Shown one piece after another: positions 4,187-15,307 of a stretch of 53,216 bases of DNA (positions within the stretch are counted from its first letter, which is position 1; each line of letters begins with the position of its first letter). The stretch lies in NCBI GenBank assembly GCA_902614835.1, contig CACMMU010000005.1, positions 1 through 53,216 on the forward strand. Reading direction: 5' to 3'. The stretch comes from an uncultured Pelagibacteraceae bacterium (GTDB lineage Bacteria; Pseudomonadota; Alphaproteobacteria; Pelagibacterales; Pelagibacteraceae). Position numbers and translations under genes: made by a program. The notes beneath the pieces were generated by a model. The model was not told the DNA's origin and did no database searches. It was given only the letters and a program-made list of their open reading frames with translations.

Positions 4187-5242
4187 ATGGCTACTATAGA
4201 ATTAAAAAATATTGAAAAATCATTTGGTGAAAACAAGGTAATTGACAAATTTAATATCAAAATAAATCACGGCGAATTTATTGTTTTAGTAGGTCCATCA
4301 GGATGTGGAAAGTCCACACTCCTAAGAATGATTTCTGGTTTAGAGTCTGTTGATGAAGGTGAAATACATTTAGATAAAAAAATAATTAATAATTTAATTC
4401 CATCAAAAAGAGGAATTGCAATGGTTTTTCAATCATACGCCTTATACCCACACATGAATGTTTATGAAAATATGTCATTCGGATTGAAAAATGAAAAACT
4501 TGATAAAAACGAAATAGATAAAAAGGTAAAAGATGCTGCTAAAACTCTTCAAATCGAAGATCTTCTTGAGAGAAAACCAAGACAACTTTCTGGTGGACAA
4601 CGACAAAGAGTGGCAATAGGTCGTGCAATAACGAGAAACCCTAAATTGTTTTTGTTTGATGAACCGCTTTCAAATCTTGATGCTGCTTTAAGATCAGAAA
4701 TGCGTGTAGAAATTTCAAAACTTCATAAAAAACTTAGTACGAATATGATTTATGTGACACACGATCAAGTAGAGGCCATGACACTAGCTGATAAGATTGT
4801 TATTTTAAATCAAGGTGTAATGGAGCAATATGGATCACCTGATGAAATATACAATAATCCAAATAATATTTTTGTAGCAGAATTTATAGGGTCCCCAAGA
4901 ATGAATATTTTAAAAATTGATAAAGGTAAAATTAAAAATGAAAATACAATTAATATTTTCAATAGCGATATCCAGTTTAATGGTTATAAATTTAATGATG
5001 ATATTTATCTTGGAATTAGACCTGAACATATTAAAGCTGATAATTCTCAAGATATAAAAGCCAAAATTAAGATTGATCTTATAGAAAATCTTGGATTTGA
5101 TAAGATTATATACTCATCTGTGGATGGAGAAGAGTTTAGAATAAAAACTTCAAGCAATATCGATAAAAATCATTCCCAAATATCATTCTCTAAAGAAAAT
5201 GTTTATTTCTTTGACTCAAATAAAAATAGGATCAAAAATTAG
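4187..5242 (+). CDS. Sugar ABC transporter ATP-binding protein, MalK/UgpC type
   Basis: This cytoplasmic ATPase powers the sugar importer. It shows the Walker A motif GPSGCGKST (36-44), Q-loop Gln82, signature LSGGQ (134-138), Walker B LFLFDEP (154-160) and switch His192. After about residue 230 comes a C-terminal TOBE/OB regulatory domain (GIRPEHI), as in MalK, UgpC and MsmK. The length of 351 aa is normal. It is transcribed away from the rest of the transporter, from the shared spacer. Its 3' end overlaps the convergent znuA by four bases. MalK-type ATPases can serve several importers, so exclusive pairing is an inference from position. Confidence 0.92.
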
Positions 5243-6261
5243 CAGCCTTTAAAAGATGAAGACATATTTTTCAGTAATTCTGAATACATGCCTTTACCCT
5301 TGTCTATGGTTGCTCCTAGAGGATCTAACACACCAGTTTTAATATTAGTATCTTTTGCAATTGTTTTTATAATTGATGGATTAAACTGTGGTTCTGAAAA
5401 AATACAATTAACTTTTTCATGTTCAATAACTTCTCTAATCTCAGCTAATTGTTCAGCACCGGGTAATACATCTGTATTTACAGTTAATGCACCAAGAACT
5501 TTAATTCCAAATCTATTTTCAAAATATTGATAGGCATCATGGAAAACTACAACTCTTGAATTTTTATTTAAGTCTTTTTTAATAGATTTTGTTAAAGCAT
5601 CTATATCTGCAATAGCTTCTTTAGAATTTGCCTTATATTTTTCGCTGTTTGCTGAATCAAGCTTAACCAATTGATTTGTAATTTCTTTAATAATCACTTT
5701 GGCATTCATTGGGTCTAACCAAATGTGCGGATCGTGTTCCCCATGAGCATGTCCTTCGTGTCCATGATCATCATGCTTATCTTTTTTATGTCCATGATCA
5801 TCGTGCTTATCTTTTTTATGTCCATGATCATCGTGTTTATCTTTTTTATGTCCGTGATCATCGTGCTTATCTTCTTTGTGACCGTGATCATCGTGACCTT
5901 CGAATATATTCTTTTCTCTAAATTTTAATTTTTTAATTCCTTTTAAATCCATTAATTCAACTTTTGTTGCTTTTTTTGCAATTGAATCTAATGGTTTTTC
6001 TAGAAACGCTTCTAAATCCTCACCAACCCAAATAATTAGATCAGCATTTTCGATCATTTTTGCATGCGAAGGTTTTAAGCTAAAACCGTGTGGAGAGTTA
6101 TAACCATCTACTATTACATTAGGCTTTACAACACCATCCATAACGTATGCAGCCAATGAATGTATTGGTTTAATTGATGTAACTACTTTAACGTCTGCAG
6201 ATACTGTGCTGTTAAAAGAAAATATAGATAAAAACAATGTAATAAATAGGGTTCGTTTCAT
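5239..6261 (-). CDS. znuA: Zinc ABC transporter substrate-binding protein ZnuA
   Basis: This is a periplasmic high-affinity zinc-binding protein (cluster A-I) with signal peptide residues 1-22. Zinc ligands of the family are in place: His34 in the KPIHS segment, a second His after the His-rich loop in HDPHIWLDP, and the conserved [12 protein letters not shown] region. Residues about 123-173 form a His/Asp-rich loop made of near-identical 10-residue repeats ([10 protein letters not shown]), the zinc-chaperone loop of ZnuA. An AGGAG Shine-Dalgarno precedes the ATG. It diverges from znuCB across two Zur-like boxes, so zinc-repressed expression is expected. Confidence 0.95.
5761..5900. repeat. 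30-bp tandem repeat inside znuA (His-rich loop)
   Basis: About 4.7 copies of a 30-bp unit run in phase with the reading frame. Each encodes [10 protein letters not shown] or a close variant. The units differ at only a few bases (for example tccatgatcatcatg versus tccgtgatcatcgtg), which suggests recent expansion by slippage or unequal recombination. Changes of whole units would keep the frame. Confidence 0.9.
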
Positions 6262-7910: not shown

Positions 7911-8315
7911 ATGACTCAAAAACAAGAACAACTCTCAAAAAACCAACAAATCGTTCTTAGTATAATTGAGAAGGCAAAAGGACCACTAAAAGCTTATTCA
8001 ATACTTTACAACGTTCAAAAAAGAGGAATCAAAGCACCCCTGCAGGTTTACAGAGCTTTAGATAAGCTTATTGAAATAGGAAAAATACATAAGATTGAAA
8101 GCAAAAATGCTTTTATAGCCTGTAATAATTCTGAATGTGAAATTTCAAAAGCAACAGCTTTTTCTATTTGTAATAATTGCGAACACGTCAAAGAAATAAA
8201 AAATACTAAACTTTCTAAATATTTAAGTAATTTCCAAGATAATTCTGGGATGAAATATAAGAAATATAATTTAGAATTTTTTGGTTTATGTAAAAATTGT
8301 AAGTTAAAACAATAA
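7911..8315 (+). CDS. zur: Fur-family zinc uptake regulator Zur
   Basis: This 134-residue Fur-family repressor has a winged-helix domain at about residues 10-65 (RGIKAPLQVYRALDKL is the recognition-helix region). A dimerisation domain follows with two CxxC pairs (Cys87/Cys90 and Cys127/Cys130) forming the structural zinc site. His60 and Cys71 match sensory-site ligands, but the histidine-rich stretch usual after Cys71 is replaced by NSECE, with a Cys at 76. Its place at the end of znuCB and the Zur-like boxes upstream of the operon identify it as Zur rather than Fur or PerR. A hairpin terminator follows. Confidence 0.88.
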   Translation: MTQKQEQLSKNQQIVLSIIEKAKGPLKAYSILYNVQKRGIKAPLQVYRALDKLIEIGKIHKIESKNAFIACNNSECEISKATAFSICNNCEHVKEIKNTKLSKYLSNFQDNSGMKYKKYNLEFFGLCKNCKLKQ

Positions 8316-8326
8316 AATTTCAAAAA

Positions 8327-8352
8327 AAGCCCTATTTATAAGGCTTATTTTA
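8327..8352 (+). terminator. Terminator after znuCB-zur
   Basis: The stem AAGCC (8327-8331) pairs with GGCTT (8342-8346), with an inner TAT/ATA pairing and a T-rich 3' tail (ATTTTATT). It lies 12 bases after the zur stop and has the form of a rho-independent terminator. Confidence 0.75.
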
Positions 8353-8409
8353 TTCACTTTTTAGTTGCATAGCGGTTACATTAACATTTCATACATGCTA
8401 GCTTTTCTC

Positions 8410-8427
8410 AATTATTAATTAATAATT
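8410..8427. promoter_or_regulatory. 18-bp perfect A/T palindrome before proX
   Basis: AATTATTAATTAATAATT is its own reverse complement and ends 18 bases before the proX ATG, just ahead of the strong Shine-Dalgarno AGGGGG. It could be an operator or a 5'-UTR hairpin. At this A+T content such a palindrome can also occur by chance. Confidence 0.35.
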
Positions 8428-8445
8428 AAACAAATAGGGGGAAAA

Positions 8446-9387
8446 ATGAGACTATTTAAGTTAATAGTTGCTCTGTTTACTTCGATCACTATCACTAGCG
8501 CTGTTAATGCCGCTGAAGTTAAAATGGCAAAAGCGAACTGGGATACTGGTTATTTCCAAGCTGAAATATACAAACAAGCTTTGGAAAAAATGGGACACAC
8601 AGTAACTGAACCTAAAGCTATCAAACCTTCAGTATTTTACGTAGCTGCAGCTGCGGGAGATCTAGACCTATGGGTTAACGGTTGGTTTGGAACTCACGAC
8701 GGTTACATCAAAGAAGCCAAAGGTAAAGTTAAGAAAGTTGGCTATGTGATGAAAAAAGGCGGATTACAAGGTTATCTAGTTGATAAAAAATCAGCTGATA
8801 AGTATGGAATCAAAAGCGTAATGGACATTAAAGCTAACGCTAAAGCATGGGACTCTAATGGCGATGGTAAAGCAGACATGGTTGCTTGCCCTCCAGGTTG
8901 GGGTTGTGAAAAGCAAATTACAAAACATTTTGCTGAACTTGGTTTAGGCGACTTTATTAATCCAGTAAAAGCTGACTACTCTGCTTCTATGGCTGATGTA
9001 GTAGCTAAATACAAAAACGGAAAACCTGTATTATTTTATACATGGACTCCGAATTGGACTGTTGGTGCTTTAAAACTTGGACAGGACGTTGTTTGGATAG
9101 AAGTTCCTTACAGCGCTACTAAAAAAGTTAGCGTTCCTAATGCAACAAAATCTAAAATAAATATGGGTTTTGGTGCTGATGACATCCGACCAGCTGCTAA
9201 TGCTGATTTCCTTAAAGCAAATAAAGATATTGCGAAAATGCTTAAGAAAGCATCAATTCCTTTAGCTGATATTGCTGCTCAAAACATGAAAATGAATGCG
9301 GGCGAGAAAAGTGAAAGAGCAATTAAAAAGCATGCTGCTGCTTGGATTAAAGCAAACCAAAGTACTTTCGATAGTTGGTTAAAATAA
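8446..9387 (+). CDS. proX: Glycine betaine/proline ABC transporter substrate-binding protein ProX
   Basis: This 313-residue periplasmic binding protein of the OpuAC/ProX family has signal peptide residues 1-22 (ending VNAAE). Family hallmarks are NWDTGYFQAEIYKQALEKMG at the mature N-terminus, LDLWVNGWFGTH and VACPPGWGCEKQ with its cysteine pair and aromatic residues. Tryptophans of the kind that form the betaine-binding cage are present. The loop DSNGDGKADM is common in this subfamily. The start has a very strong Shine-Dalgarno (AGGGGG, spacing about 5). It is followed 18 bases later by proW. The ligand is probably glycine betaine or a related quaternary amine. Confidence 0.9.
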   Translation: MRLFKLIVALFTSITITSAVNAAEVKMAKANWDTGYFQAEIYKQALEKMGHTVTEPKAIKPSVFYVAAAAGDLDLWVNGWFGTHDGYIKEAKGKVKKVGYVMKKGGLQGYLVDKKSADKYGIKSVMDIKANAKAWDSNGDGKADMVACPPGWGCEKQITKHFAELGLGDFINPVKADYSASMADVVAKYKNGKPVLFYTWTPNWTVGALKLGQDVVWIEVPYSATKKVSVPNATKSKINMGFGADDIRPAANADFLKANKDIAKMLKKASIPLADIAAQNMKMNAGEKSERAIKKHAAAWIKANQSTFDSWLK

Positions 9388-9398
9388 GCTGCAATTAT

Positions 9399-9413
9399 AA
9401 GTTCAGTGAACTT
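9399..9413 (+). other. Palindrome over the proW start codon
   Basis: AAGTTCA-G-TGAACTT is a perfect inverted repeat centred on the GTG start of proW. As RNA it can form only about five A/U-rich base pairs with a five-base loop, so any effect on proW translation would be modest. Confidence 0.4.
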
Positions 9414-10272
9414 AAAACTTGCACCATCTGACTACGAAATTTACATTCCGATAGCAGAATGGATTGAAAGAAATATTAAAGAGTGGCTGTTTACACAACG
9501 GCCGCTCTTTAAGAAGCTCGCAGCTCCAATTGATGCCACACTAAATGGTTTAGACACTTTTTTTAATTGGATACCTTTTCCAATTGTAATTTTAATTTTT
9601 GCTTTTATTGCATGGAAAACTAATGGTATAAAATTTGCAATTTTTTCAGCACTTGCTCTGATCTCAATTGATCTTGTGGATCTTTGGAAAGAAACCATGA
9701 CCACTTTAGCAATGATATTTACTGCTGTAATTTTTTGTATGATTATTGGTATTCCCGTAGGTATTGCTGCATCTAGAAGTAATTTATTTGAAACTATTCT
9801 AAGACCCATATTAGATATTATGCAAACCATACCAAGTTTTGTTTATTTGATACCTGTAGTAATGCTTTTTGGTGTAGGTTTAACACCAGGTGTTGTTGCA
9901 ACTATTATATTTGCACTTCCACCGATCGTTCGTCTTACCAACCTTGGAATAAGACAAGTGGGTAAAGGTTTTAAAGAAGCGGGCGCGAGTTTAGGATTAA
10001 CAAGATTTAAAATATTACATAGAATTGAAATACCTTTAGCCATGAAAACTATTATGGCAGGCGTTAACCAAACACTAATGTTAGCCTTATCAATGGTAGT
10101 TATAGCCGCTTTAATTGGTGCTGGTGGCCTAGGACTTACAGTTTACGTGGCACTTGGAAGATTAGACATTGGAGGAGCAGTTATTGGTGGAACAGGAATA
10201 GTAATACTTGCAATTGTTTTAGACAGAATTACACAAAAAATTGTCCCTCAAGACAATATTAAAACTAGGTAA
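9406..10272 (+). CDS. proW: Glycine betaine/proline ABC transporter permease ProW
   Basis: This 288-residue inner-membrane permease of the ProW/OpuAB type has an N-terminal hydrophilic extension of about 50 residues, then about six helices. The EAA-type loop (EAGASLGLTRFKILHRIEIPLA) is the ATPase contact. Translation starts at GTG, 18 bases after the proX stop; no better start lies nearby. The expected third subunit, the CBS-domain ATPase ProV, is not next to it and is not seen elsewhere in the window. The 3' end overlaps a small convergent gene by eight bases. Confidence 0.9.
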   Translation: MNLKLAPSDYEIYIPIAEWIERNIKEWLFTQRPLFKKLAAPIDATLNGLDTFFNWIPFPIVILIFAFIAWKTNGIKFAIFSALALISIDLVDLWKETMTTLAMIFTAVIFCMIIGIPVGIAASRSNLFETILRPILDIMQTIPSFVYLIPVVMLFGVGLTPGVVATIIFALPPIVRLTNLGIRQVGKGFKEAGASLGLTRFKILHRIEIPLAMKTIMAGVNQTLMLALSMVVIAALIGAGGLGLTVYVALGRLDIGGAVIGGTGIVILAIVLDRITQKIVPQDNIKTR

Positions 10273-10453
10273 ATATTATTGAACCAATAATAAAAATTAT
10301 AATAGCCGATAATGCAGCAAACATTAACCACCAATATAAAATGATTTTAAGCGAAGGTTTGCTAAATTTACCCTTTTTATATTCCCAGGGTATAAAAGTA
10401 TAAGTTAGAAGTGTTACAAGAATAAAAAATAAAAGCAGATTTTGTAATAACAT
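10265..10453 (-). CDS. Small two-helix membrane protein, unknown function
   Basis: This gene encodes 62 residues with two strongly hydrophobic segments (about 2-22 and 38-60) separated by a basic stretch (EYKKGKFSKPSLK). I do not recognise the family. The hydrophobic-basic-hydrophobic pattern looks like a real two-helix membrane protein. It also fills the gap between proW and the methyltransferase gene almost exactly. It converges on proW with an eight-base overlap. No function can be assigned. Confidence 0.55.
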   Translation of the reverse strand: MLLQNLLLFFILVTLLTYTFIPWEYKKGKFSKPSLKIILYWWLMFAALSAIIIFIIGSIIFT

Positions 10454-10534
10454 ATGAAATATTTAATACGATTTTATTATTTGTCAATTGTACATTTACA
10501 AATTTTTTTGGTATTAAAACTCCTTAAATAACCA

Positions 10535-11437
10535 ATGTCCTTACAAAAAGATCTAATTTCTGGTTTATCAAAAAAGGAAAAGACAATTCCATCTAAATAT
10601 CATTATAATTTACAGGGCAGCAAATATTTTGAGAAAATTACCCAGCAAAAAGAATATTATCCAACTAGGAAAGAAAAAGAGATACTTAAAAATATTTCTA
10701 AAGAAATACCCAAACTATTTAAGGGTAAGCTATCGTATATAGAATTGGGAAGTGGAGCTATTGATAAGATAAAGTTATTAATTAACAAGGATGTAAAATA
10801 TTATGTCCCACTCGATATATCGTTAGATTATGTAAGAAAGTCAGTAAAAAAACTTAAAAAACAATACCCAAAAATTAAAATAAAGCCCAAAAAAATTGAT
10901 TATTCTAAGCAATTTAAAATACCCAATCTTAAAGAAACAACAAAAGTTTATTTTTTTCTAGGTTCATCTATTGGTAATTTTTACAATAAGGAGGAAATTA
11001 AATTTTTAAAAAAGTTAAGAAAAAGTATAAGTAAAAACAACTATTTATTTATTGGTGTTGATCTTATTAAAAACAAAACTACCCTTGATAAAGCTTATAA
11101 TGATAAAAAAGGATATACAGCTAAATTTAGTTTAAATTTAATCAATATAATAAATAGAACACAAAAAACTAATTTAAATATTAATGATTTTTACTATCAT
11201 GGTTATTATAATACTAAAAAAAAATGCATTCACGGTTTTTTAGTAAGCAAAATCAATCAAAGCTTTAAAATTGGCAATAAAAGATTTTTTTTAAAAAAGA
11301 GTGAGAGAATCTTAGTCGAAATTTCGAATAAATTTACTATACAATCTTTTAAAAGATTGGCTTCAAATACTGGTTGGTCCACTGAGCAAGTTTGGTTAGA
11401 TAATCAAAAATATTATTCTCTATTCCTACTAAAATAG
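10535..11437 (+). CDS. egtD: EgtD-like L-histidine N-alpha-methyltransferase
   Basis: This cytoplasmic SAM-dependent methyltransferase of the EgtD family trimethylates the amino group of histidine to hercynine. It shows the SAM-binding ELGSG (70-74), YVPLDIS (90-96), FLGSSIGN (141-148), GVDLIKNKTTLDKAYND (174-190) and GYTAKFSLNLINIINR. The ExS pair (Glu262 and Ser264 in VEISNKF) binds the substrate amino group in known EgtD. Length is 300 aa against about 320. No egtB (sulfoxide synthase) is nearby, so ergothioneine synthesis is not evident. The position directly after the betaine importer suggests a betaine-type osmolyte role, as inference. Relatives acting on other amino acids exist. Confidence 0.82.
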   Translation: MSLQKDLISGLSKKEKTIPSKYHYNLQGSKYFEKITQQKEYYPTRKEKEILKNISKEIPKLFKGKLSYIELGSGAIDKIKLLINKDVKYYVPLDISLDYVRKSVKKLKKQYPKIKIKPKKIDYSKQFKIPNLKETTKVYFFLGSSIGNFYNKEEIKFLKKLRKSISKNNYLFIGVDLIKNKTTLDKAYNDKKGYTAKFSLNLINIINRTQKTNLNINDFYYHGYYNTKKKCIHGFLVSKINQSFKIGNKRFFLKKSERILVEISNKFTIQSFKRLASNTGWSTEQVWLDNQKYYSLFLLK

Positions 11438-11459
11438 TAAGGTATGCGACGTTTTTGCC

Positions 11460-11478
11460 ATTGATAATCATTATCAAT
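11460..11478. promoter_or_regulatory. Fur-type iron box upstream of the Fe(III) importer
   Basis: ATTGATAATCATTATCAAT is a perfect 9-1-9 palindrome and contains the classic Fur-box core GATAAT-N-ATTATC. It lies 49 bases before the ATG of the iron-binding protein gene, a fitting position for iron-dependent repression. Confidence 0.85.
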
Positions 11479-11527
11479 TATATGATAATAGTTCTCAAAT
11501 TATAAACAATAAAAAAGGGAAGATAAA

Positions 11528-12559
11528 ATGAGAAAAATGTTAAAAGTATTTGGTTTAGCTTTTGTAGGATTGTTATCCACATTGCTAATAGCTAACTCTG
11601 TTTTTGCAAATGAAGTAAATATCTTTAGCGCAAGACACTACGATTCAGATGTACAATTGTACCAAAAATTTACATCAAAGACCGGTATAAAAGTTAATGT
11701 AGTTTCTGGAAAATCTGGTGCTCTTGAAAAAAGAATTATCGCAGAAGCTGGCACAGCTGATTTATATATAACAGCAGACGCCGGAAGATTAGGAGCATTC
11801 AAAGACAACTTGCAAGGTGGTCTTACTAGCTCTGCAATTAAATCTGCGGTTCCAAGTAATTTTAGAACATCTAAATGGGTGGGAATAGCTAAAAGAGCGA
11901 GAATAGTTTATTTTGCCCCTGAAAGAGTAAGTGGTGCAGAATTAGCAGGTTTAACTTATGAAAGTTTAGCTGATCCTAAATGGCAAGGAAGACTTGTGAT
12001 AAGAGCATCAAACAATATTTATAATCAATCACTTGTTGCTTCATTAATTAAAAATAACGGAAAAGGTAAAGTTGCAGAGTGGTCAAAAGGTATGGTTAAA
12101 AATATGGCTAGAGCTCCAAAGGGTAATGATAGAGCTCAAATCTTAGCAGTAGCGGCAGGAGAAGCAGATATTGCTGTTGCTAATACATATTATTTAGCTC
12201 TTATGTTATCAGGGAAAAAAGGAGCTGAACAACAAGCGGCTGCTAAAAAAGTAAAACCTTTCTTTCCAAATCAAGATGGCAGAGGAACTCACATGAACAT
12301 TAGTGGTGCAGGTTTAGTTAAAGGAGCACCTAACAAAGCTAATGCAATTAAATTAGTAGAATTTTTACTAAGCGAAGAAGCACAGAATCACATAGTAAAT
12401 AATACATTTGAGTATCCTATGATAGCTGGTGTTTCCCCACACCCACTTGTAGTAAATATGGGTTTAGATTTTAAACAAGATCTAAAAACTAAAGTTGTTA
12501 ACTACGGTAAAAGACAAGCTGATGCATTAGAAGTAATGACAGCGGCAGGTTGGAAATAG
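11528..12559 (+). CDS. fbpA: Fe(III) ABC transporter substrate-binding protein (FbpA/FutA type)
   Basis: This 343-residue periplasmic ferric-iron-binding protein has signal peptide residues 1-27 (ending VFANE). The mature N-terminus NIFSARHYDSD carries the His37/Tyr38 pair, and Tyr221-Tyr222 in the ANTYYLALM segment form the dityrosine iron site. Together these match the FutA/cFbpA class. An AAGGGA Shine-Dalgarno precedes the ATG, and a Fur-type palindrome lies upstream. It is the first gene of a three-gene iron importer and is separated from the permease gene by a small stem-loop. Confidence 0.93.
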   Translation: MRKMLKVFGLAFVGLLSTLLIANSVFANEVNIFSARHYDSDVQLYQKFTSKTGIKVNVVSGKSGALEKRIIAEAGTADLYITADAGRLGAFKDNLQGGLTSSAIKSAVPSNFRTSKWVGIAKRARIVYFAPERVSGAELAGLTYESLADPKWQGRLVIRASNNIYNQSLVASLIKNNGKGKVAEWSKGMVKNMARAPKGNDRAQILAVAAGEADIAVANTYYLALMLSGKKGAEQQAAAKKVKPFFPNQDGRGTHMNISGAGLVKGAPNKANAIKLVEFLLSEEAQNHIVNNTFEYPMIAGVSPHPLVVNMGLDFKQDLKTKVVNYGKRQADALEVMTAAGWK

Positions 12560-12583
12560 TTATATAATTAAGATTGTGTAGCC

Positions 12584-12598
12584 ATTGTGCTCCACAAT
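12584..12598 (+). other. Stem-loop between fbpA and the permease gene
   Basis: ATTGTG-CTC-CACAAT forms a 6-bp stem with a three-base loop, 24 bases after the fbpA stop and nine bases before the permease ATG. No T-tract follows, so it looks more like an RNA-stabilising or translation-modulating hairpin than a terminator. An upstream ATTGTG copy (12573-12578) could pair with the same arm. Confidence 0.5.
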
Positions 12599-12607
12599 CA
12601 CATTATA

Positions 12608-14224
12608 ATGACACGATATAATTTTTGGTTTTTTATTTCATTAGTAATAGCGTTGATAGTTGCGCTACCCATACTAACAGTTTTTTTTAGTTTTTTTTCT
12701 GAGACAAGCAATTATTTCAATGTATTAAAAAATACATTTCTTTTTGAATACATAAATAATTCACTAATAATTTTAATTTCTGTTTTAATAATAACTTTTT
12801 TTATAGGAGTTACATCGGCTTATTTTGTATCTTTTTATGATTTCCCTTTTTCAAATTTTTTTAGCTGGGCGTTAATTTTAGCTTTTGCGATTCCTGGGTA
12901 CATTTTTGCATTTTCTATAATAGCTTTTTTTGAAAATTACGGTACTGCTTACACAATATTAACAAATTTATTCGGTGAATATAATTACAATCCATTAATA
13001 CCAAAATTTGATAGTTTAGTTGGATCAATTATTGCAATAAGTTTTTCTCTATTTCCTTATGTTTTTGTATTAACTAGATCGTCTTTTTTATATCAATCTA
13101 ACAACTATATTGAAGTTGGGCAAAATTTAGGTTTATCAGAAAAAGAAACTTTTTATAAAATTATTTTACCATCAGCACGACCCGCTATTATTGCTGGATT
13201 AGCTTTAGTTGCCATGGAATGTCTATCTGATTTTGGAACCGTCTCGTTTTTTAGCGTAAATACTTTAACTACCGGTATATATAATTCTTGGTTATCATTT
13301 GATGATCTCAACACAGCAAATCAAATTTCATTTATCCTCCTTATATTTATTTTATTATTATTTTCACTTGAAATATATTCAAGAAGAGAAGCAAAATACC
13401 ATCAACCGACCAGAGGCTTTAAACCAATAAACAAAATTAAATTAACTGGTAAAAAATCTTTAATACCTTTTACGTTTTGTTTTTTAATTTTTTTTGTAAG
13501 TTTCATATTTCCCGTTTCTCAAATGATTTTTTGGACATTTAAATTTCCAAAATATTTTCAGGATATAGATATTTTAAAAATTAATTTAAACACATTATAT
13601 TTAGTTGGTCTTGCCAGTTTATGCCTAGTTGCCATATCATTATTAATAAACTTTGGAAGCAGAATATCAAAAAGCAAAATTTTAAATTATTTAACCAATT
13701 TTTCTATATCTGGATATGCGATACCGGGTGTAATATTAGCTGTAGCATTTATAACTTTTTTTTCAAATCTTAGCGATTTAATAACAAATAATTTTAATGT
13801 AGGAAGTACAAAACATTTATTTATTGGTTCAATATCTGGTTTAATACTCGCTTACTTTGTTAGATTCTTTTCACTATCTTTTAATGGGATAAAATCATCT
13901 TATGAAAAAATTAATAATTCAATAGACGAAAGCGCTTACTTACTTGGATATTCTAAAGTTAAAACTTTTTCAAAAATACATGTACCATATTTAAAAAATA
14001 ACATCATTTTGATAATAGTATTAATTTCACTGGAAATTATAAAAGAGCTACCAATAACCATGATTCTTAGACCTTTTAATTTTGAGACATTTGCTACGCA
14101 GGCCTATGTTTATGCTTCGCAAGATTTATTAGAAGCCGCAGCATTGCCTTCTTTATTTTTGATAAGCTGGGCAACAATTTTAATATTATTCTCTTCAAAA
14201 TATATACTTTCGCCTAAAAATTAA
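12608..14224 (+). CDS. fbpB: Fe(III) ABC transporter permease (fused two-domain, FbpB type)
   Basis: This 538-residue inner-membrane permease has two consecutive six-helix permease units, each with an EAA loop (EVGQNLGLSEKETFYKIILPSARP in the first, DESAYLLGYSKVKTFSKIHVPYLK in the second). This is the standard layout of FbpB/SfuB iron permeases. I start it at ATG 12608. An in-frame GTG at 12587 would add seven residues (LHNHII and a Met) but lies inside the preceding stem-loop. It pairs with the binding protein before it and the ATPase 12 bases after it. Confidence 0.9.
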   Translation: MTRYNFWFFISLVIALIVALPILTVFFSFFSETSNYFNVLKNTFLFEYINNSLIILISVLIITFFIGVTSAYFVSFYDFPFSNFFSWALILAFAIPGYIFAFSIIAFFENYGTAYTILTNLFGEYNYNPLIPKFDSLVGSIIAISFSLFPYVFVLTRSSFLYQSNNYIEVGQNLGLSEKETFYKIILPSARPAIIAGLALVAMECLSDFGTVSFFSVNTLTTGIYNSWLSFDDLNTANQISFILLIFILLLFSLEIYSRREAKYHQPTRGFKPINKIKLTGKKSLIPFTFCFLIFFVSFIFPVSQMIFWTFKFPKYFQDIDILKINLNTLYLVGLASLCLVAISLLINFGSRISKSKILNYLTNFSISGYAIPGVILAVAFITFFSNLSDLITNNFNVGSTKHLFIGSISGLILAYFVRFFSLSFNGIKSSYEKINNSIDESAYLLGYSKVKTFSKIHVPYLKNNIILIIVLISLEIIKELPITMILRPFNFETFATQAYVYASQDLLEAAALPSLFLISWATILILFSSKYILSPKN

Positions 14225-14236
14225 TATAATTAACTA

Positions 14237-15307
14237 ATGTCAAAAAATTTTTTTGAAATTAGAAATGGTCATTTTTTAGCAAGTGAAAAAAATAAAGTTA
14301 ATAACGTAAATCTAAAAATTGAAAAGCAGGGCGATATAGTCACATTGTTAGGCCCATCTGGCGTTGGAAAAACTACTATATTAAGAACAATTGCTGGTTT
14401 ACAAAAAATTAATTCAGGTGAAATTTATTTAAAAAATAAAATAATTTCTTCTGAAAACTTTCATTTAGAACCAGAAAAAAGAAATATAGCTCTTTCATTT
14501 CAAGATAACTCTCTTTTTCCAAACTACAAAGTTATTGACAATATCAATTTTGGTAAAAAAAGATCTAACGGTAATGGATTTGAAATAAAAGCAAGTCATA
14601 TTATTAAATTATTACACATAGAAGCTATACTCGAGAAATACCCACATCAAATTAGCGCAGGAGAAGCTCAAAGAGTCTCTTTAGCTAGATCGATAATGTC
14701 GAAACCAGATTTATTATTACTTGATGAACCTTTTTCCAATATAGATCAAAGTTTAAAAGATGAAATTCAATATTCAGTTAAAAATTTATTAAAAAAGATA
14801 AGTCTTACCACTATTTTAGTCACACATGACTCCTTCGAAGCCTTTTCTCTAGCAGACAAATGTGGAGTTATTTTAAATCAGGAATTAAAACAATTTGACG
14901 TACCTTACAGTGTCCATCACGAACCCAACTCTCTCGAAGTGGCCAAATTTTTAAATAGAGGAGTTTTCGTTGAAGTTGAAGTTATTGAAACCGATTGTGC
15001 TGTACATAGTTTAAAACATTCTGTTTTAGGTGAAATAAGGGGTAAACTAGTGAACAATTTCCCTGTGGGTTCTAAAGTGAAACTGCTTTTACAACCTGAA
15101 GATTTGATACATGATGATCAAAGTAAATTAAAATTAGAAGTTATTGATAGAAAGTTTAGAGGGACAAATTTCATTTATACCTTAAAAACAATTCATGATG
15201 AGCAAATACCTGTTTTTGTACACTCTCATCATATTCACCAGCACGAGAAAAATGAAAAATTTGGAATTAAAACTCCTATTTTTATTGACCATCTGGTATG
15301 TTTTTAA
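14237..15307 (+). CDS. fbpC: Fe(III) ABC transporter ATP-binding protein (FbpC type)
   Basis: This 356-residue ATPase of the iron importer has Walker A GPSGVGKTT (39-47) and Walker B LLLLDEP (159-165), with a switch histidine in VTHD. The signature is ISAGE (139-143) rather than LSGGQ, a variation seen in some iron and sulfate importers. The last 120 or so residues form a TOBE-like domain. The C-terminus (HSHHIHQHEK) is histidine rich. It is the last gene of the iron operon; tRNA-Arg follows after 24 bases with no obvious terminator between them. Confidence 0.92.
   Translation: MSKNFFEIRNGHFLASEKNKVNNVNLKIEKQGDIVTLLGPSGVGKTTILRTIAGLQKINSGEIYLKNKIISSENFHLEPEKRNIALSFQDNSLFPNYKVIDNINFGKKRSNGNGFEIKASHIIKLLHIEAILEKYPHQISAGEAQRVSLARSIMSKPDLLLLDEPFSNIDQSLKDEIQYSVKNLLKKISLTTILVTHDSFEAFSLADKCGVILNQELKQFDVPYSVHHEPNSLEVAKFLNRGVFVEVEVIETDCAVHSLKHSVLGEIRGKLVNNFPVGSKVKLLLQPEDLIHDDQSKLKLEVIDRKFRGTNFIYTLKTIHDEQIPVFVHSHHIHQHEKNEKFGIKTPIFIDHLVCF

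Follow-up and report, generated by a model that had tools for sequence, protein, structure and literature searches.

A stand-alone EgtD with a remodeled pocket in a SAR11 genus: a possible source of hercynine or a new betaine

Introduction

What use does a streamlined marine bacterium have for a histidine methyltransferase when no enzyme known to carry out the following step toward ergothioneine can be recognized in its genome? SAR11 bacteria are aerobic, belong to the most numerous cells of the ocean, and have few genes to spare. The question is raised by a 53,216-nt stretch of DNA (here called the window) from an uncultured SAR11 (Pelagibacteraceae) bacterium, whose genome (G000) comprises 858 kb in 38 contigs and is 79% complete. 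A first-pass annotation of the window described an EgtD-like methyltransferase downstream of a betaine importer and proposed hercynine or another amino-acid betaine as its product. Hercynine is sulfurized by three enzyme classes, EgtB, EanB, and MES, and EgtDs lacking a known sulfurase have already been reported from scattered genomes (PMC9516567).

Results

The open reading frame (ORF) at positions 10535 to 11437 (forward strand) encodes a 300-amino-acid (aa) member of the S-adenosylmethionine (SAM)-dependent histidine N-alpha-methyltransferase family, EgtD. It matched TIGR03438 (EgtD) with 301.5 bits, over the curated equivalog cutoff of 290.9, and PF10017 with 290.1 bits (cutoff, 23). All six of its sequence matches in the PDB were histidine methyltransferases EgtD (best E value, 3.8e-36), with identity to the crystallized EgtDs of approximately 27 to 28%. 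An AlphaFold model, built from an alignment of 23 rows, had a mean pLDDT of 90.5, and Foldseek returned query-normalized TM scores of 0.90 to 0.94 to EgtD entries (0.94 to 4uy5), compared with no more than 0.51 for the non-EgtD entries among the matches listed. The SAM motif and the Glu262/Ser264 pair noted in the first-pass annotation both align with EgtD of Mycobacterium smegmatis, the former as G-S-G at residues 72 to 74 and the latter with Glu282/Ser284. The ORF is a genuine full-length EgtD and very likely transfers a methyl group from SAM to an alpha-amine.

To identify how widely the gene occurs, PF10017 was surveyed in 101 genomes, comprising 31 of the genus (the window's own included) and 70 relatives outside it. 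Matches were found in 26 genomes, 25 from the genus and one from outside; none of the 70 outside relatives had an EgtD over the cutoff, with G053 carrying one subthreshold stretch (E value, 8e-4). The closest relatives of the gene were records of uncultured Pelagibacteraceae (SAR11). In three genomes (G019, G022, and G028) egtD was partial or split over two contigs, and in G014 it lay in two pieces on one contig. Given the completeness of the genomes, a core gene would be expected in 23.6 ± 2.3 of the 31, and EgtD was seen in 25; in this one uncultured genus of the Pelagibacteraceae (SAR11) the gene is close to being core. A chance ORF or contamination was ruled out by the orthologs in 25 of the 31 genomes and a shared gene order across the loci examined. 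Of the six genomes in the genus that lack EgtD, four have permeases only 33 to 40% identical to ProW and two have no ProW match. As all six thus lack a ProW ortholog, no genome of the genus shows an intact locus from which EgtD is missing.

In a phylogenetic tree, 11 SAR11 EgtDs formed one clade (support, 100/100) whose stem measured 2.18 changes per column, and no sister group was supported among 50 alphaproteobacterial sequences, one archaeal sequence, and one mycobacterial sequence. The AT-rich rows of the tree failed the composition test, and this bias leaves the placement of the clade unsure. No EgtD match was found among phage records, nor did viral contigs yield one in a pattern-limited scan, a method that detects close relatives only.

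Upstream of egtD on the same strand lie genes for ProX, a glycine betaine/proline-type substrate-binding protein (positions 8446 to 9387; NF008334, 333 bits; cutoff, 215), and a ProW-like permease (9406 to 10272; NF008196, 319 bits, below the cutoff of 439). No ProV gene adjoins them, and the 79% complete genome yielded no ProV above the cutoff of the model (best match, 225 bits versus 327). ProX matched its Escherichia coli counterpart (1r9l) with an E value of 6e-63, and W65, H69, W140, and W188 of the latter, which we take to be the cage residues of a glycine-betaine binder, align with the same residues. The start of egtD is 262 bases past the proW stop codon, and the gap is filled by a small, hydrophobic, conserved antisense ORF of 62 codons (10265 to 10453, reverse strand), which has no Pfam match and was 73 to 92% identical in seven of the 10 related loci looked at.

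The locus was compared across 25 genomes, namely, the window, G026, and 23 relatives, and the usual gene order was ProX-ProW-(variable)-EgtD-FbpABC, with contig ends cutting two of the loci. The variable segment is a gap of 37 to 38 bp in 10 loci and the antisense small ORF in seven, window included. In G026 it holds the small ORF with MetF-like and GcvT-like genes. Four loci (L043, L044, L045, and L049) have TmpA-like and HD-type genes there, some of them with an MFS gene as well, and L031 has a Pot-like ABC transporter. EgtD starts 9 bp past the HD gene in L049 and 2 nt past the GcvT-like gene in G026, and in L043 there is a 4-bp overlap between it and the MFS gene; in these three an operon probably ends with egtD. 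The GcvT-like protein scored 238 bits against the dimethylsulfoniopropionate (DMSP) demethylase model (cutoff, 410), and strain HTCC1062 is reported to have a metF-aminomethyltransferase pair whose substrate is not known (PMC3160333).

The paired genes for a TmpA-like oxygenase and an HD-type protein occupy L049:6324-7976 and L043:4964-6617. The TmpA-like protein scored 331 bits against the TmpA model (cutoff, 400) and had TmpA as its best PDB match, while the HD protein showed a weak likeness to PhnZ. In L155, from another SAR11 family, such a pair adjoins an aldehyde dehydrogenase gene and other catabolic genes, a context suggestive of the degradation of a trimethylammonium compound. As pathway partners of EgtD the two genes are unlikely in general, as the HD gene was present in four of the 31 genus genomes versus 50 of the 70 relatives outside the genus (one 30-residue fragment and one weak match among the 50).

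The first-pass annotation had suggested that ProXW might handle the EgtD product. In its favor, of the 23 loci readable on that side, 21 have ProXW upstream of egtD in the same orientation; against it, EgtD persists without ProXW in L031, where the last 35 codons of proW remain, and in L045, and ProX has kept its cage residues. In both of these loci a Pot-like ABC transporter (L031:3236-7745 and L045:1-2518; permeases 56 to 61% identical) is found upstream of EgtD instead. The association is one of position, and the suggestion is supported in part.

Downstream of egtD, in an order conserved in related loci, are ORFs for an ABC transporter (11528 to 15307, forward strand) to which we assigned the name FbpABC from the sequences. 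Between egtD and fbpA, at 11461 to 11477, is an exact palindrome that resembles a Fur box; GATAATCATTATC was found at the same site in 20 of 21 loci, and the number of Fur-box patterns with three or fewer mismatches in the window was not above chance. An operon of egtD with the downstream iron transporter was rejected on account of this palindrome, and the FbpABC genes were judged not to be part of the EgtD system. Scans of positions 8280 to 11620 found 17 promoter and two terminator candidates, compared with shuffle means of 15.7 and 1.5; with counts so near the shuffle means, they tell nothing about a promoter of egtD's own. Elsewhere in the window, a ZnuA-like protein (5239 to 6261, reverse strand) contains a tandem His/Asp-rich repeat and probably binds metal.

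The first-pass annotation reported no EgtB gene near egtD and proposed a genome search for EgtB or another sulfoxide synthase. That search came back empty well beyond the locus: TIGR03440 (EgtB) had no match in the window's own genome (79% complete), and PF03781, covering the FGE-type fold common to EgtB, OvoA, and SenA, had none in any of the 31 genus genomes, which are 58 to 95% complete, such that a rare partner could escape in any single one. Rhodanese matches occurred in all 31, every ORF being 307 aa or shorter, and none reached the 441 to 460 residues of the sulfurtransferase chains that we take to be EanB. The window's own genome encodes a 132-aa single-domain rhodanese, a 301-aa TrhO, and a 269-aa protein with 236 bits to the 3-mercaptopyruvate sulfurtransferase (MST) model (cutoff, 250). 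Matches to PF00384, the molybdopterin family, were found in 24 of the 31 genomes (none in the window's own), with ORFs of 679 to 704 aa, presumably NuoG by their size, shorter pieces of 227 to 570 aa, and one of 1,276 aa. No recognizable MES, a metallopterin protein fused to a cysteine desulfurase, was found among these ORFs, as judged by ORF size, with the 227- to 570-aa pieces not assignable. The 1,276-aa ORF (G004:C27:5777-7975), from a genus member without EgtD, matches a nitrate reductase alpha subunit in size.

Among 387 alphaproteobacterial genomes, PF10017 matches were found in 135, and those that scored 200 bits or more (124 genomes) were taken as EgtD bearing. An EgtB-like protein (TIGR03440, at least 138 bits) was present in 122 of these, with 98 over the curated cutoff and the other 24 under it; its gene lay within 5 kb of EgtD in 101. 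The two exceptions were the window's own genome and G136, the latter with a PF10017 match of just 201 bits. With EgtB-like proteins in 122 of 124 EgtD genomes, the lack of EgtB in the SAR11 genus is unusual, and ergothioneine is likely not made there by a known route, within the limits of genome completeness.

Hercynine might still be converted to ergothioneine by a fourth, undiscovered sulfurizing enzyme encoded elsewhere in the SAR11 genome. MES provides a precedent, as PMC9516567 describes its discovery from genomes that had a histidine methyltransferase and no discernible sulfurase (approximately 80, of which 55 have MES). The SAR11 cells also carry small rhodaneses and the MST-like protein. 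However, no candidate is conserved beside EgtD, the TmpA-like, HD, MFS, MetF-like, and GcvT-like neighbors each occur in a minority of loci, and the MST-like protein matches MSTs (E value, 9e-62) far better than it does the presumed EanB chains (4e-8), so that we consider such an enzyme rather unlikely.

The pocket of the SAR11 enzyme both retains and departs from that of characterized EgtDs. In PMC8593015, Tyr56, Tyr206, and Ser284 contact the carboxylate of histidine and Asn166 its amine, Thr213 and a water are placed at the imidazole, and Glu282 is named among the substrate contacts. The equivalents of Tyr56, Asn166, Tyr206, Thr213, Glu282, and Ser284 in the window are Y41, N148, Y188, T195, E262, and S264, and, with the exception of one truncated row, all contact residues were kept wherever they were present (42 of 42 alignment rows). 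Six pocket changes specific to the SAR11 clade, M252G (Gly234 of the window), H239Y, A241G, T281V, N217S, and T163S, were fixed in 21 of 21 SAR11 genomes. The SAR11 residue at 252, 239, 241, 281, 217, and 163 was seen in 0, 0, 1, 0, 3, and 3, respectively, of 50 alphaproteobacterial EgtDs (30 top scoring and 20 hand-picked, mostly low scoring, from the 124), all from genomes with an EgtB-like protein; at position 252, four of the 50 had Ile or Ser. Position 252 is of interest since a variant engineered at this site and one other, M252V,E282A, has been crystallized with tryptophan, according to the title of 4pip.

These changes, together with the long stem of the clade and the fact that 252 is one of the two positions altered in the tryptophan variant, raise the possibility that the remodeled pocket takes a substrate other than plain histidine, either a different amino acid or histidine in a modified form, which would yield a different amino-acid betaine. 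As a control for position 252, EgtDs from 12 of 51 EgtD-bearing plasmid records were compared; six had Ser and none had Gly, and in five of the six with Ser252 an annotated egtB adjoins egtD. A small residue at 252 is thus compatible with the ergothioneine pathway, which weakens M252G as proof of a new substrate; Met252 does not appear strictly EgtD defining, and the SAR11 enzyme has Gly there. With the six histidine contacts also kept, we regard a changed substrate as improbable, slightly more so than a fourth sulfurase. Histidine is not certain, as the pocket is altered (M252G, H239Y, T281V, and others), but it would remain the likeliest substrate, an assignment in which we have fairly good confidence.

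Selection on the gene was assessed from pairwise dN/dS values, calculated with an in-house NG86 script. The median for EgtD was 0.084 (127 of 210 pairs with dS of 0.1 to 1.2), compared with medians of 0.084 for ProX, 0.029 for ProW, and 0.057 for FbpA in related loci, and the EgtD frame was interrupted in one locus, L046. EgtD in the SAR11 genus is under strong purifying selection. That it is a functionless leftover of a lost ergothioneine pathway, as the missing partner enzyme and the interrupted frame might suggest, is highly improbable for a gene with a dN/dS equal to that of ProX, conserved substrate contacts, and near-core presence in small genomes.

Discussion

Hercynine or a related betaine is the best reading of this locus because the enzyme is selected, its histidine contacts are kept, and no EgtB, EanB, or MES was recognized in the 31 genomes. 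The product proposed in the first-pass annotation is upheld insofar as the enzyme is real and no known sulfurase accompanies it, whereas histidine as its substrate became less certain with the altered pocket. Hercynine or a close amino-acid betaine, rather than ergothioneine by a known route, is the likely product. In the scheme that we propose, to which we give about an even chance, the betaine of this SAR11 genus would be passed to no known ergothioneine synthase and would either be an end product or feed an undiscovered step. The fuller picture, in which a stand-alone EgtD with a remodeled pocket in a genus of free-living SAR11 supplies hercynine or a new betaine that is used unsulfurized or sulfurized by an undiscovered enzyme class, at a methylated-nitrogen locus behind a betaine importer, is put forward tentatively.

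If, as we infer, the enzyme is active and accepts histidine, hercynine may be the end product, and several physiological roles might be considered. A bulk osmolyte would be the weakest idea, as a three-nitrogen compound looks costly for nitrogen-short SAR11 cells. A low-level protective or exchanged metabolite, or the feed for an undiscovered enzyme, fits as well.

The SAR11 enzyme resembles the EgtDs of M. smegmatis (4pim) and Mycobacterium tuberculosis (7scf) in its family score over the cutoff, its fold, its SAM motif, and the contacts checked. Unlike the crystallized EgtDs, it has no known sulfurase in its genome or genus, and it has Gly at the position of Met252 along with the other clade-specific changes. 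Another parallel is offered by the anaerobes with EgtD and MES (PMC9516567), as in both groups a histidine methyltransferase gene is accompanied by neither EgtB nor EanB; however, those organisms have MES and live without oxygen, and no MES was recognized in SAR11. A gene annotated as L-histidine N(alpha)-methyltransferase on a plasmid of Rhizobium sp. T1470 (L174, 3989 to 4969) similarly has no egtB among the features listed within 4 kb. It adjoins ATP-grasp, MFS, and oxidoreductase genes and carries S284E and T213A, at two contacts that are both kept in SAR11, and may encode a different amino-acid methyltransferase.

A literature search, mostly without subscription journals, found among the papers listed none on EgtD or on hercynine (histidine betaine) in SAR11 and none on trimethylaminoethylphosphonate with SAR11. 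For ergothioneine with Pelagibacter only a paper on soil bacteria was found, for hercynine with phytoplankton there was a single paper, and for hercynine with seawater no environmental study was found, as judged by title. A selected EgtD without a known next step would imply one of two things: hercynine-like betaines serve ocean bacteria in their own right, or there is a further ergothioneine synthase still to be discovered.
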